The notes beneath the pieces were generated by a model that had not been told where the DNA came from, ran no database searches, and saw only the letters and a list, made by a program, of their open reading frames with translations. From the NCBI RefSeq assembly GCF_023238445.1, contig NZ_CP096658.1, positions 2,232,001 through 2,296,000 of the forward strand: 64,000 bases of DNA, given 5' to 3'. The stretch is from Halorussus gelatinilyticus (lineage in GTDB: Archaea; Halobacteriota; Halobacteria; Halobacteriales; Haladaptataceae). Below are positions 11,068 to 15,343 of this stretch, piece after piece (within the stretch, counting starts at the first letter, position 1; every line of letters starts with the position of its first letter). The translations under genes and the position numbers were made by a program.

Positions 11068-11556
11068 TCACAGCCCTTCGAGCGAGCGCAACTTCTGTTC
11101 GACGGCGGCGGGGGCGGCGCTCGGCCCGTCTCGGACCCTGTGGTCGGGAATCAACAGCGGCGCGGGGTTCTCGTCGAGCGCGGTCCGGACCAGGTTCAGG
11201 TCCTCCTCGTCGGTGTGGTCGATGTCGCTGGTCATCCGGGCCAGCGTCTCGACGTTTATCTGGTCGCCGTAGGGAATCCCGCGGACGCGCTCCAGCACGC
11301 GGCGCTGGTCGGTCGGGACCGTGAGCGCGATTTCGACGTCCGAGAAGTCCTCGTCGTCGATGCCGTCGAGGTAGTCGAAGATGCGGTCGAGCAGGTCGTG
11401 GTCCTCGCCGGCCTCCTCGTCGGGCACGTCGGGGAACGAGACGCTGAGAACCCGACCGCTCGCCACCCCGAGTTGAACGTAGCGTTCCAGATACGACGAC
11501 TCGCGCGCGAAGATGCCCGTGATACCGTCTCCACCTGCGTCGCCAATCTCGTCCAT
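11068..11556 (-). CDS. alkyltransferase-like protein (MGMT family) with Asp in place of the acceptor Cys
   Basis: The C-terminal half of this 162-residue protein aligns by motif to O6-alkylguanine-DNA alkyltransferases: [17 protein letters not shown] (about 92-108) matches the IPYGxxxxYGxLA helix-turn-helix region, and [12 protein letters not shown] (130-141) matches NPxPLLIPCHRV. The alkyl-accepting Cys is Asp138, so the normal one-step transfer is impossible. Known alkyltransferase-like proteins carry Trp or Ala there and flag lesions for repair. The N-terminal half is acidic and unrecognised. It is divergent from trpC. Confidence 0.8.
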
Positions 11557-11620
11557 GCCGCCCGATTCGGGCGGTCCGGACTTGAAGATTCCGCGGGCGA
11601 ACCGCGACCCCAGCGCAAGC

Positions 11621-11652
11621 CTTTTGTACAATTCCGTCCGTTGGTGTACAAC
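11621..11652 (+). promoter_or_regulatory. trp promoter with two TGTACA boxes
   Basis: CTTTTGTACAATT (11621-11633) sits where the TATA box of a leaderless trpC mRNA is expected. TGTACAA occurs at 11625-11631 and again at 11645-11651, exactly 20 bp (two helical turns) apart. TGTACA is the core of the TRP box bound by the repressor TrpY in Methanothermobacter, so these are candidate operators for a similar tryptophan-responsive regulator. Confidence 0.55.
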
Positions 11653-11653
11653 G

Positions 11654-12451
11654 ATGAACGACAGCGACGAACTCGCGCCCGCAGTCGCCGCCATCCTGCG
11701 GTCCGCCGAGGCCCGCGGCGACCCCGAGCGGGGGCCGGTCTCGGTGGACTCGCGGTCGCTCCCCGCGGCGCTGGCCGACGCCGAGACCGACGGGCGCGTG
11801 CCAGTCATCGCAGAGGTGAAACCGACGAGTCCGACCACGGAGGGCACCCGCGAGGAGGACCCCGTGGCACTCGCCGAGGCGATGGTCGAGGGCGGGGCCG
11901 CCGCCCTCTCGGTCCTCACGGAACCCGACCACTTCGGGGGGTCGCCCGAGAACCTGCGGCGAATCCGCGAGGCGGTGGACGTGCCGGTCCTCCGGAAGGA
12001 CTTCGTGCTACGCGAGGCGCAACTCGACACGGTGGAAGCCGACGTAATCTTGCTCATCGCTCGATTCGTCGGCGACGACCTGCCGGACCTCGTGGCGGCC
12101 GCGAGAGAGCGCGGCTTCCAACCGCTCGTGGAGGTCCACGACGAGGCGGAACTGCGAGCGGCCATCGACGCCGGCGCGGAAATCGTCGGCGTCAACAACC
12201 GCGACTTGGCCCGACTGGAGGTGGACCTCGAAACCTTCGAGAGCGTCGCGCCCCAAGCGCCGGACGACGTGACGCTGGTCGCGGAGAGCGGTATCGCCAC
12301 GCCCGACGACGCCCGCCGGATGGTCGCGGCGGGTGCGGACGGTCTGCTGGTCGGGAGCGCGATAATGGACGGACCGATTTCGGAGAACACGCGCGAACTG
12401 ACGCGAGCGCGACCGGACGAGACGCGGACATCCGAGGAGACACAGACATGA
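11654..12451 (+). CDS. trpC: indole-3-glycerol-phosphate synthase
   Basis: The 265-residue TIM barrel has [15 protein letters not shown] (about 54-68, catalytic Lys), [13 protein letters not shown] (catalytic Lys), [24 protein letters not shown] and AESGI, all typical of TrpC. It closes the indole ring of carboxyphenylamino-deoxyribulose phosphate. MNDSDELAP at 11654 is preferred over longer frames because the TATA element lies about 28 nt before it. TrpC and trpB overlap by 4 nt (ATGA). Confidence 0.96.
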
Positions 12452-13686
12452 GCAGCGAATCCAAGTTCGGCGAGTACGGCGGCCAGTACGTCCCCGAGGC
12501 GTTGATGCCCGCCATCGAAGAGTTGACCGACGCCTACGAGCGCTACGTCCTCGACAACGAGGACGGGTTCATGGACGAGTTCCGCGAGCGCCTGCGGGAC
12601 TTCGGCGGGCGGCCGACGCCGCTCCAGCGCGCGGACAGACTGAGCGAGCGATACGACCGGGAAGTCTACCTCAAGCGCGAGGACCTGCTCCACGGCGGCG
12701 CGCACAAACTGAACAACGCGCTCGGGCAGGTCCTGCTGGCGAAGTACATGGGCAAAGAGCGCATCGTCGCCGAGACGGGCGCGGGCCAGCACGGCACCGC
12801 GACCGCGATGGCCTGCGCGTACCTCGACGTGGACTGCGAAATCTACATGGGTCGGACCGACATCAACCGCCAGCGACCCAACGTCTTCCGGATGCGCATC
12901 CACGACGCCGCGGTCAACCCCGTGGACATCGGGTCGGGGACGCTCAAGGAGGCCATCAACGAGACGATGCGCGACTGGGCGACCAACGTCGAGGACACCC
13001 ACTACGTCATCGGTTCCGTCGTGGGGCCGCACCCGTTCCCCCGGATGGTCCGGGACTTCCAGTCGGTCATCAGCGAGGAGGCCCGCGAGCAGATTCGAGA
13101 GAAGGCGGGGAGACTCCCCGACAGCGTGGTCGCCTGCGCCGGCGGCGGGTCGAACACGATGGGCGCGTTCCACGAGTTCGTCGGCGACGACGAGGTGGAC
13201 CTCGTGGCCGTCGAGGCCGGTGGCTCCGCACTCACCATCGACGAGGAGGAGGGACTCGCGCCCCACTCGGCGTCGCTCTCGACCGGCGACGACGGCGTGT
13301 TGCACGGCGCGCGAACCAAACTCCTCCAGAACCCCGACGGCCAGATTCTCGAATCCCACAGCGTGAGCGCCGGACTCGACTACTCGGGCGTCGGCCCGGA
13401 ACTGGCCTACCTCGCCGACGAAGGGCGAGTGACGCCGGTCAACGTCGGCGACGACGCCGCGCTCGAAGCGTTCCACCGACTCTCGAAGACCGAGGGCATC
13501 ATCCCCGCGCTCGAATCCAGTCACGCGCTGGCGTATCTGGAGGAACACCCCGACGAACTGGGCGACCTCGTGGTCGTCAACGTCTCGGGCCGGGGCGACA
13601 AGGACCTCGACACGGTCATCGAGGAGAGCGAGAAGCGCGACTTGGACGCCGCGCCCTCGATGGAGGTGTTCGAAGGTGAGCAGTGA
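12448..13686 (+). CDS. trpB: tryptophan synthase beta subunit
   Basis: The 412-residue PLP enzyme has HKLNNALGQ with Lys87 as the Schiff-base lysine (same number as in enterobacteria), [13 protein letters not shown], the phosphate-binding loop GGGSNTMG and [12 protein letters not shown]. It is the TrpB1 type, which pairs with TrpA and joins indole to serine. The start overlaps the trpC stop (ATGA), and the end overlaps trpA by 11 nt, showing tight translational coupling. Length is normal. Confidence 0.97.
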
Positions 13687-14521
13687 AATCGAGGCGGCCT
13701 TCGCCGACGAACCGGCGCTGGTCTCCTACGTCGCGGCGGGCGACCCGGACGCCGAGAGTACGAAGGAGTACGTCCGGGCGCTGGTCCGTGGCGGGACCGA
13801 CGTGGTGGAACTCGGCCTGCCGTTCTCCGAACCCGTCGCGGAGGGACCGACCATCCAGCAGGCCATCCGCCGGGCGTTGGACGCCGGGATGACGCCCGAC
13901 CGGTACTTCGACCTCGTGGCGGAGTTGCGCGAGGAGGTCGACGTGCCGCTGGTCTGCATGACCTACTACAACCTCATCTACCAGTACGGTTCGGGAGAAG
14001 GAGGGGCAGACGACGGACGGGAGGGGCCCGAACCCTTCGTGGCGGCCGCCGCCGAGGCGGGCATCTCGGGTCTCATCGTCCCGGACCTGCCGGTGGACGA
14101 GAGCGACCCGCTGAAGGAGGCCTGCGAGACCCACGGTCTCGACCTGATCTTCATCGTCGCACCGACGACGACCGACGAGCGACTCGGGCGCATGCTCTCC
14201 CGCGCGAGCGGGTTCGTCTACGTGCAGGGGCGACTGGGCACGACCGGCGCGCGTTCGGACGTGAGCGACGACACCCACGGGAGCCTCGACCGACTCGCCG
14301 AGACCGACCTGCCGAAAGCGGTCGGGTTCGGCATCAGCGAGGGCGACCACGCCCGCGAAATCGTCGCGGGCGGCGCGGACGGCATCATCGTCGGGAGCGC
14401 GTTCGTGGACATCGTCGCGGAACAGGAGGACACCGCCGACCGCCTCGAAGCCAAGGCCCGAGAACTCAAGGCCGGCGCGCTCGACGGCGCGCCAGACCTT
14501 CCGGAACCGGAAAGCAAATAA
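13676..14521 (+). CDS. trpA: tryptophan synthase alpha subunit
   Basis: The 281-residue TIM barrel cleaves indole-glycerol phosphate and passes indole to TrpB. The motif [17 protein letters not shown] carries the catalytic Glu45; the second catalytic acid (Asp60 in Salmonella) is Glu56 here. A loop insertion of about 15 residues rich in Gly/Asp/Glu follows YYNLIYQYG. The start is a GTG inside the end of trpB. The last gene of the trpCBA unit; the next gene starts 27 bp later. Confidence 0.95.
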
Positions 14522-14548
14522 CCGCTCTTTGCCACATATTCACACACT

Positions 14549-15343
14549 ATGGACGCAGGAACTGCGGCACGACTCGAACGCATCGGCACAGACGGGACAC
14601 ACGTAATCGTCCCGATGGACCACGGCATCACGCTCGGCGCGGTGAAGGGTCTCGTGGACATCGAATCGACCATCGACGCGGTGACGCGCGGCGGCGCGGA
14701 CGCGGTGTTGACCCAGAAGGGTATCGCGCCGCGCGTCCACGACAACAAGAACGGCGCGGGCTACGTCGTCCACCTCAACGCCTCGACCTCCATCGGCCCG
14801 GACAACAACGACAAGCGCCTGACCGGCACCGTCAAGGAGGCCGTCCGGGCGGGCGCTGACGCGGTGTCGTTCCACATCAACGTCGGGAGCACGTACGAGC
14901 GCGAGCAGATGGAGCAACTGGCCGAGATAACCGACGATGCCGACGAGTACGGGATGCCCGTGCTGGCGATGGCCTACGCCCGCGGGCCGGGCGTGGACGA
15001 ACACGACGCCGAGAGTCTGGGCCACGCGGTCCGCCTCGCCGAGGAGGTCGGCAGCGACGTGGTGAAGACCGGCTACAGCGGCGACGCCGAGAGCTTCGAG
15101 CGCGTCGTGGAGTCGACCCGACTCCCGGTCGTCATCGCGGGGGGCGAACCGGAGGGCGACCGAGCGACCCTCGACGCGGTCCGCGGCGCGATGGACGCGG
15201 GCGCGGCGGGCGTCTCGATGGGCCGGTCGATATTCCAGCACGACGACCCCGAGGCCATCACGCGCGCCGTGACGAGCGTGGTTCACGACGGTCTCGCTAC
15301 GGAGGACGCCCTCCGCGAGGCGGGACTGGCCGTCGAAGCCTGA
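14549..15343 (+). CDS. 2-amino-3,7-dideoxy-D-threo-hept-6-ulosonate synthase (archaeal aromatic pathway aldolase)
   Basis: The 264-residue class I aldolase has VPMDHGITLG (Asp24), AYARGPG (Tyr143) and DVVKTGYSG with the predicted Schiff-base Lys173. This family starts the archaeal route to 3-dehydroquinate that bypasses DAHP synthase. Placement directly after trpCBA supports that role over glycolytic fructose-bisphosphate aldolase. The usual partner, dehydroquinate synthase II, is not next to it and is absent from the window. A TATA-like ACCGCTCTTT element precedes the ATG. Confidence 0.88.
   Translation: MDAGTAARLERIGTDGTHVIVPMDHGITLGAVKGLVDIESTIDAVTRGGADAVLTQKGIAPRVHDNKNGAGYVVHLNASTSIGPDNNDKRLTGTVKEAVRAGADAVSFHINVGSTYEREQMEQLAEITDDADEYGMPVLAMAYARGPGVDEHDAESLGHAVRLAEEVGSDVVKTGYSGDAESFERVVESTRLPVVIAGGEPEGDRATLDAVRGAMDAGAAGVSMGRSIFQHDDPEAITRAVTSVVHDGLATEDALREAGLAVEA

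Follow-up and report, generated by a model that had tools for sequence, protein, structure and literature searches.

The trpCBA locus and its promoter

The window analysed here is the whole 64,000-nucleotide stretch of the Halorussus gelatinilyticus genome (contig NZ_CP096658.1, positions 2,232,001 to 2,296,000), and the feature under study lies directly ahead of a tryptophan biosynthesis gene cluster within it. The genes of this cluster, in window coordinates, are as follows:

11654..12451, plus strand: trpC, indole-3-glycerol phosphate synthase, first gene of the putatively controlled operon (NF041303, 431.7 bits against a cut-off of 380 bits)
12448..13686, plus strand: trpB, overlapping the end of trpC (TIGR00263, 609.6 bits)
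13676..14521, plus strand: trpA, with a GTG start and overlapping the end of trpB (TIGR00262, 255.6 bits)
14549..15343, plus strand: 2-amino-3,7-dideoxy-D-threo-hept-6-ulosonate synthase, first aromatic-pathway step (TIGR01949, 360.3 bits)

The last gene is probably co-transcribed with trpCBA, by analogy with Halobacterium salinarum, where the trpCBA operon includes its counterpart OE1472F (PMC4162585). Tryptophan itself is nearly absent from the trp enzymes of the genome (window 11654-15343 and L100:2335-6312), with none in TrpC, TrpA, TrpD, and TrpG, one each in TrpB and TrpF, and two in TrpE.

The promoter of trpC contains the following elements:

11614..11628, plus strand: putative BRE/TATA region, CGCAAGCC TTTTGTA, with the conserved form CGCAAGCCTTATGTA across the 32 haloarchaeal trpC promoters
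11625..11630, unstranded: box 1, TGTACA, a palindrome overlapping the 3' part of the TATA region (GxxC core in 32/32, 2.0 bits per column)
11635..11640, unstranded: box 2, CGTCCG, consensus [ACT]GTnC[GA], 10 bp to each neighbour (GxxC core in 32/32, 1.3 bits per column)
11645..11650, unstranded: box 3, TGTACA, a palindrome (GxxC core in 32/32, 1.6 bits per column)
11655..11660, unstranded: possible fourth in-phase box, TGAACG, over the trpC start codon (GxxC in 20 of 32 relatives)

The region assigned to BRE/TATA would extend from about -40 to -26 relative to the trpC ATG at 11654, and the two TGTACA words, each followed by an A on the plus strand, lie at -29 to -24 and -9 to -4. The initial annotation had described these two TGTACAA words, 20 bp apart, with one copy over the TATA region; both are present, at 11625 and 11645, and box 1 does overlap TTTTGTA. 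Its description of the site as a pair was accurate for these positions and incomplete for the set, because a degenerate box, CGTCCG (-19 to -14), lies in phase midway between the two TGTACA words; the trpC site therefore comprises three boxes at 10-bp steps. Whether TGAACG belongs to the array is uncertain, as the retention of its GxxC may reflect coding constraint. Leaderless transcripts are frequent in haloarchaea, and box 3 would abut the transcription start site if the trpC transcript is leaderless.

To describe conservation, the window was aligned with 31 upstream regions (from 32 haloarchaeal contigs, one fragment being left out), giving 32 sequences with the consensus CGCAAGCCTTATGTACAnATnnGTnCGTTAGTGTACAnTAATG. 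Information content averaged 1.47 bits per column at -40 to -1 against 0.13 bits at -90 to -41, so that conservation begins at about -40 and ends abruptly further upstream. The GxxC cores at -29, -19, and -9 were kept in 32 of 32 promoters at each box; the fixed spacing that the initial annotation had put forward for checking is thus retained, and the loss in relatives that would speak against it was not seen.

On the other side of the intergenic region, a divergent gene (window 11068-11556, minus strand, 162 aa) has no NCBIfam match, and its promoter, which has a CTTGAA motif, shows conservation in several relatives. The array is unlikely to be the operator of this gene, as the boxes adjoin trpC and persist where the upstream sequence differs.

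A second array at the trpDFEG promoter

The trpD-trpF-trpE-trpG cluster of the same genome lies apart from trpCBA, from G000:C1:440334 onwards, and its promoter carries TGTACG, TGTTCA, and AGTACA at 0, +10, and +30. Among 30 loci from this genome and its relatives, the GxxC core occurs at these three slots in 97, 100, and 97%, respectively, and in none at +20, bearing out the earlier expectation that the same boxes would be found at trpD/E. In one relative (G104), the trpD boxes have drifted. The array is situated farther downstream of a TATA-like CTTAAG than the trpC array is from its TATA region, and the core promoter therefore does not include the boxes as a fixed component. The +20 slot itself (L143-L172, about 29 bp before the trpD ATG) carries a conserved AAGACG or similar sequence and may mark the region where transcription starts. 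A second, diverged trpD, with its own box array directly upstream, is present in one genome (G040:C39:83940-84920).

A sequence-only profile trained on the trpC arrays was run on the own genome and on 117 Halobacteriales genomes, 97 of them good. In the own genome it gave one match (4.4e-6), and this search did not reach the trpD promoter. Across the good Halobacteriales genomes it matched 96 of 97, with no match in G104. Of 43 secondary or weak matches listed, 27 fall 0-38 bp upstream of trpD; among the rest are trpC promoters from genomes that diverge and matches probably due to chance. In other haloarchaea the profile's main secondary target is thus the trpDFEG promoter, and this share of trpD promoters among the listed matches indicates that the trpC and trpD arrays act as one operator class. 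A looser pattern search of the own genome, allowing three mismatches, returned mostly chance-like matches, one of which was the trpD promoter. The non-trp secondary matches that were inspected (L207-L212, L218) were unconvincing, and no further regulon members are claimed.

The TrpY-family protein of haloarchaea

The initial annotation had also raised the possibility of a TrpY-like protein, and the genome does encode one, a TrpY-family ACT-domain protein of 167 aa that is the single genome match to NF053754 (242.3 bits against a cut-off of 180):

G000:C1:1495744-1496232, minus strand: trpY, predicted helix-turn-helix and ACT domain (NF053754)

NF053754 was matched in 97 of 97 good Halobacteriales genomes, with one strong match per genome, and in 116 of 117 good genomes of the phylum sample; in one of these 116, G134 (lineage f26), the match has a value of 3e-4 and is far below the cut-off. 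One genome, G002, has boxes and no TrpY match, its assembly being 86% complete. No TGTACA was found in the 90 bp before 30 haloarchaeal trpY genes, and autoregulation of trpY was rejected because these promoters are without boxes.

Arrays and TrpY across the phylum

Trp-operon leaders were inspected in 60 non-haloarchaeal genomes of the phylum. Three-box arrays, often mixing TGTACA with TATACA, stand ahead of trp operons in most lineages (shuffle p about 0.01 or less), so that arrays at exactly 10 bp also lie ahead of the trp operons of methanogen-type relatives throughout the phylum. In the array-bearing lineages, which contribute 48 leaders and were separated from the others after the scores had been seen, 28 of 48 leaders score at least 14 of 18 at a spacing of 10 bp, against 0-2 at spacings of 7-9 and 11-14; within this group the spacing control is independent of that separation. 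Control hexamers put to the same test yielded 0-8 leaders, the maximum of 8 belonging to the AT-rich TATATA. The leaders of f30 were weak (p about 0.1), some f22 leaders had no array, and no arrays were found in the trp leaders of f21, f24, f26, and f32.

The distribution of the boxes follows that of TrpY and of its predicted recognition helix. Lineages without TrpY (f26, f32, and f16) were also without boxes in the trp leaders read; the genomes concerned are two of f26, 93-95% complete, and those of f32 and f16, 76-78% complete. The only lineages that have TrpY and yet clearly have no boxes are f21 and f24, and in both the predicted recognition helix is altered, reading DRKVVVxA (DRNVVVxA in one f24 sequence), whereas elsewhere it is always DRRVVDxT apart from minor variants. 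In the non-haloarchaeal genomes that were scored, arrays are present in 31 of 32 that have the RR helix and in 0 of 9 that have the changed helix (Fisher p 3e-8, with kinship ignored). The lineages f21 and f24 belong to a single clade, which reduces the helix change to one event, and the covariation of boxes with TrpY presence and helix rests on few independent events.

In f24, trpY is divergent from trpC and adjacent to it, much as Methanothermobacter trpY stands to trpE (PMC6737238), an arrangement that provides an independent link of the TrpY family to trp. The intergenic region between the two genes (L241, L242, L263, L264) contained no TGTACA arrays, and the f24 TrpY operator is probably a different sequence.

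Proposed operator function and alternative explanations

We consider it quite likely that the array is the operator of the haloarchaeal TrpY-family protein and that it mediates repression of trpCBA and trpDFEG when tryptophan is high; co-occurrence and recognition-helix covariation suggest TrpY as the binder. The initial proposal of TrpY-like control of trp genes in haloarchaea is supported to this extent, with the refinements that the boxes are conserved beyond haloarchaea and that haloarchaeal trpY is unlinked to trp and without boxes of its own. In the proposed mechanism, TrpY subunits would bind directly to GTAC-type boxes 10 bp apart on one helix face, covering the trpC core promoter from the TATA box to the start site. 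High tryptophan, the presumed effector, would be sensed by the ACT domain, and the bound protein would repress by occlusion, blocking TBP/TFB or RNA polymerase and switching trpCBA off. The same protein would act on trpDFEG through the boxes at 0/+10/+30, and with TrpY on both arrays the two halves of the pathway would respond together. Physiological support comes from H. salinarum, in which the absence of aromatic amino acids induces trpCBA as well as trpDFEG, the regulator not being named there (PMC4162585). Counter-evidence comes from Haloferax, whose trpCBA promoter is said not to be tightly regulated in the introduction of one paper, citing Large et al. 2007 (PMC13147458).

It is also conceivable, although we regard it as unlikely, that the array is a genuine operator of another regulator and that TrpY controls something else. 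The most plausible candidate would be of the Lrp/AsnC type, such as LrpA2: Lrp proteins can bind phased sites, and the near-universality of TrpY in the phylum weakens plain co-occurrence as an argument. LrpA2/trh1 of H. salinarum (OE2776F) shares the response to aromatic amino acids, being up 14.9-fold in their absence, and was put forward as the regulator of aromatic amino acid synthesis (PMC4162585). However, this induction may be an effect rather than a cause, and LrpA2 leaves the link between the TrpY helix and box presence unexplained, as box loss tracks both TrpY loss and the change in its recognition helix. TGTACA is, in addition, reportedly the box named for Methanothermobacter TrpY.

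Explanations that dispense with a specific DNA-binding regulator fare worse. With box 1 over the TATA region and box 3 next to the trpC start codon, the boxes might be taken for elements of the core promoter or initiator in strong promoters of haloarchaea; this is very unlikely, since the trpD boxes lie at 0/+10/+30 downstream of CTTAAG, in another register to the core promoter, the profile matches essentially only trp promoters, and the trpY promoters have no boxes. An attenuator or leader structure acting in RNA seems hardly credible: the trpD +30 box would fall in a 5' leader beside the ribosome binding site, but the trpC boxes would precede a leaderless transcript, two of them (boxes 1 and 3) form short palindromes in the DNA, and what is constrained is a helical phase of 10 bp, as is typical for DNA binding. 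The TGTACA word alone is common enough, with 4 occurrences in the window against 2.1 expected, for two of them to be thought a coincidence. The pair with a 14-base gap, however, occurs only once in the 3,668,365-bp genome, at the trpC promoter, and the array is conserved in 32 of 32 promoters and spacing-specific in other lineages, which refutes chance for practical purposes.

If TrpY is the regulator, this would give a precise answer to the role of the haloarchaeal protein and to the identity of the regulator behind the H. salinarum trp response, and the proposal is testable in genetically tractable species, e.g., Haloferax volcanii. More tentatively, and with slightly less than even confidence, the phased array may be the ancestral trp operator of the phylum, in haloarchaea and methanogen-type lineages alike, with TrpY assembling cooperatively into an oligomer on one face of the DNA; f21/f24 would then have been rewired through the recognition helix, and in haloarchaea trpY would have lost its linkage, its own boxes, and its Trp2 codon. 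Such a history would amount to a natural experiment on the joint change of a regulator and its binding site.

Comparison with known systems

To our knowledge, archaeal tryptophan control has been documented in one methanogen, through TrpY, and in one Thermococcus, through Tar. For Methanothermobacter TrpY, Xie and Reeve reportedly described in 2005 a TGTACA consensus and occlusion of TBP. Methanothermobacter thermautotrophicus (trpY-trpEGCFBAD) shares with the haloarchaea TGTACA-type boxes over a trp core promoter, a TrpY-family gene, and a trp target, and, by prediction, tryptophan-dependent repression. The haloarchaeal system differs in that two separate operons would be controlled, with arrays at 0/10/20 and 0/10/30. 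Membership of the family alone implies no such function, because TkTrpY (TK1227) of Thermococcus kodakarensis, which belongs to the same family as the haloarchaeal TrpY, was shown not to regulate trp, a role performed there by Tar (TK0271); what the universal haloarchaeal TrpY does could, according to the same paper, not be estimated (PMC6737238).

The haloarchaeal and Methanothermobacter systems differ further in the protein and in its gene. TrpY has Trp2 in 44 of 44 non-haloarchaeal members and Phe at this position in 30 of 30 haloarchaea, whose proteins are without any Trp. The Methanothermobacter protein is said to have a single Trp, at residue 2, which is thus replaced by Phe2 in haloarchaea, and control through the Trp2 codon, if any, would be lost there. 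In Methanothermobacter, trpY is divergent from trpE and adjacent to it (PMC6737238), whereas haloarchaeal trpY is unlinked and its promoter is without boxes. By the curated model NF053754 the haloarchaeal protein falls in the same family as Methanothermobacter TrpY; with linkage, boxes at trpY, and Trp2 all missing, we call the haloarchaeal system a variant. In the own genome the three loci are far apart, with trpY at 1.496 Mb, trpC at 2.244 Mb, and trpD at 0.440 Mb. Several haloarchaea (L115, L121, L122, L124, L141) have trpY directly after a reading frame ending in TPSTKGAL, which we take to be HisB-like.
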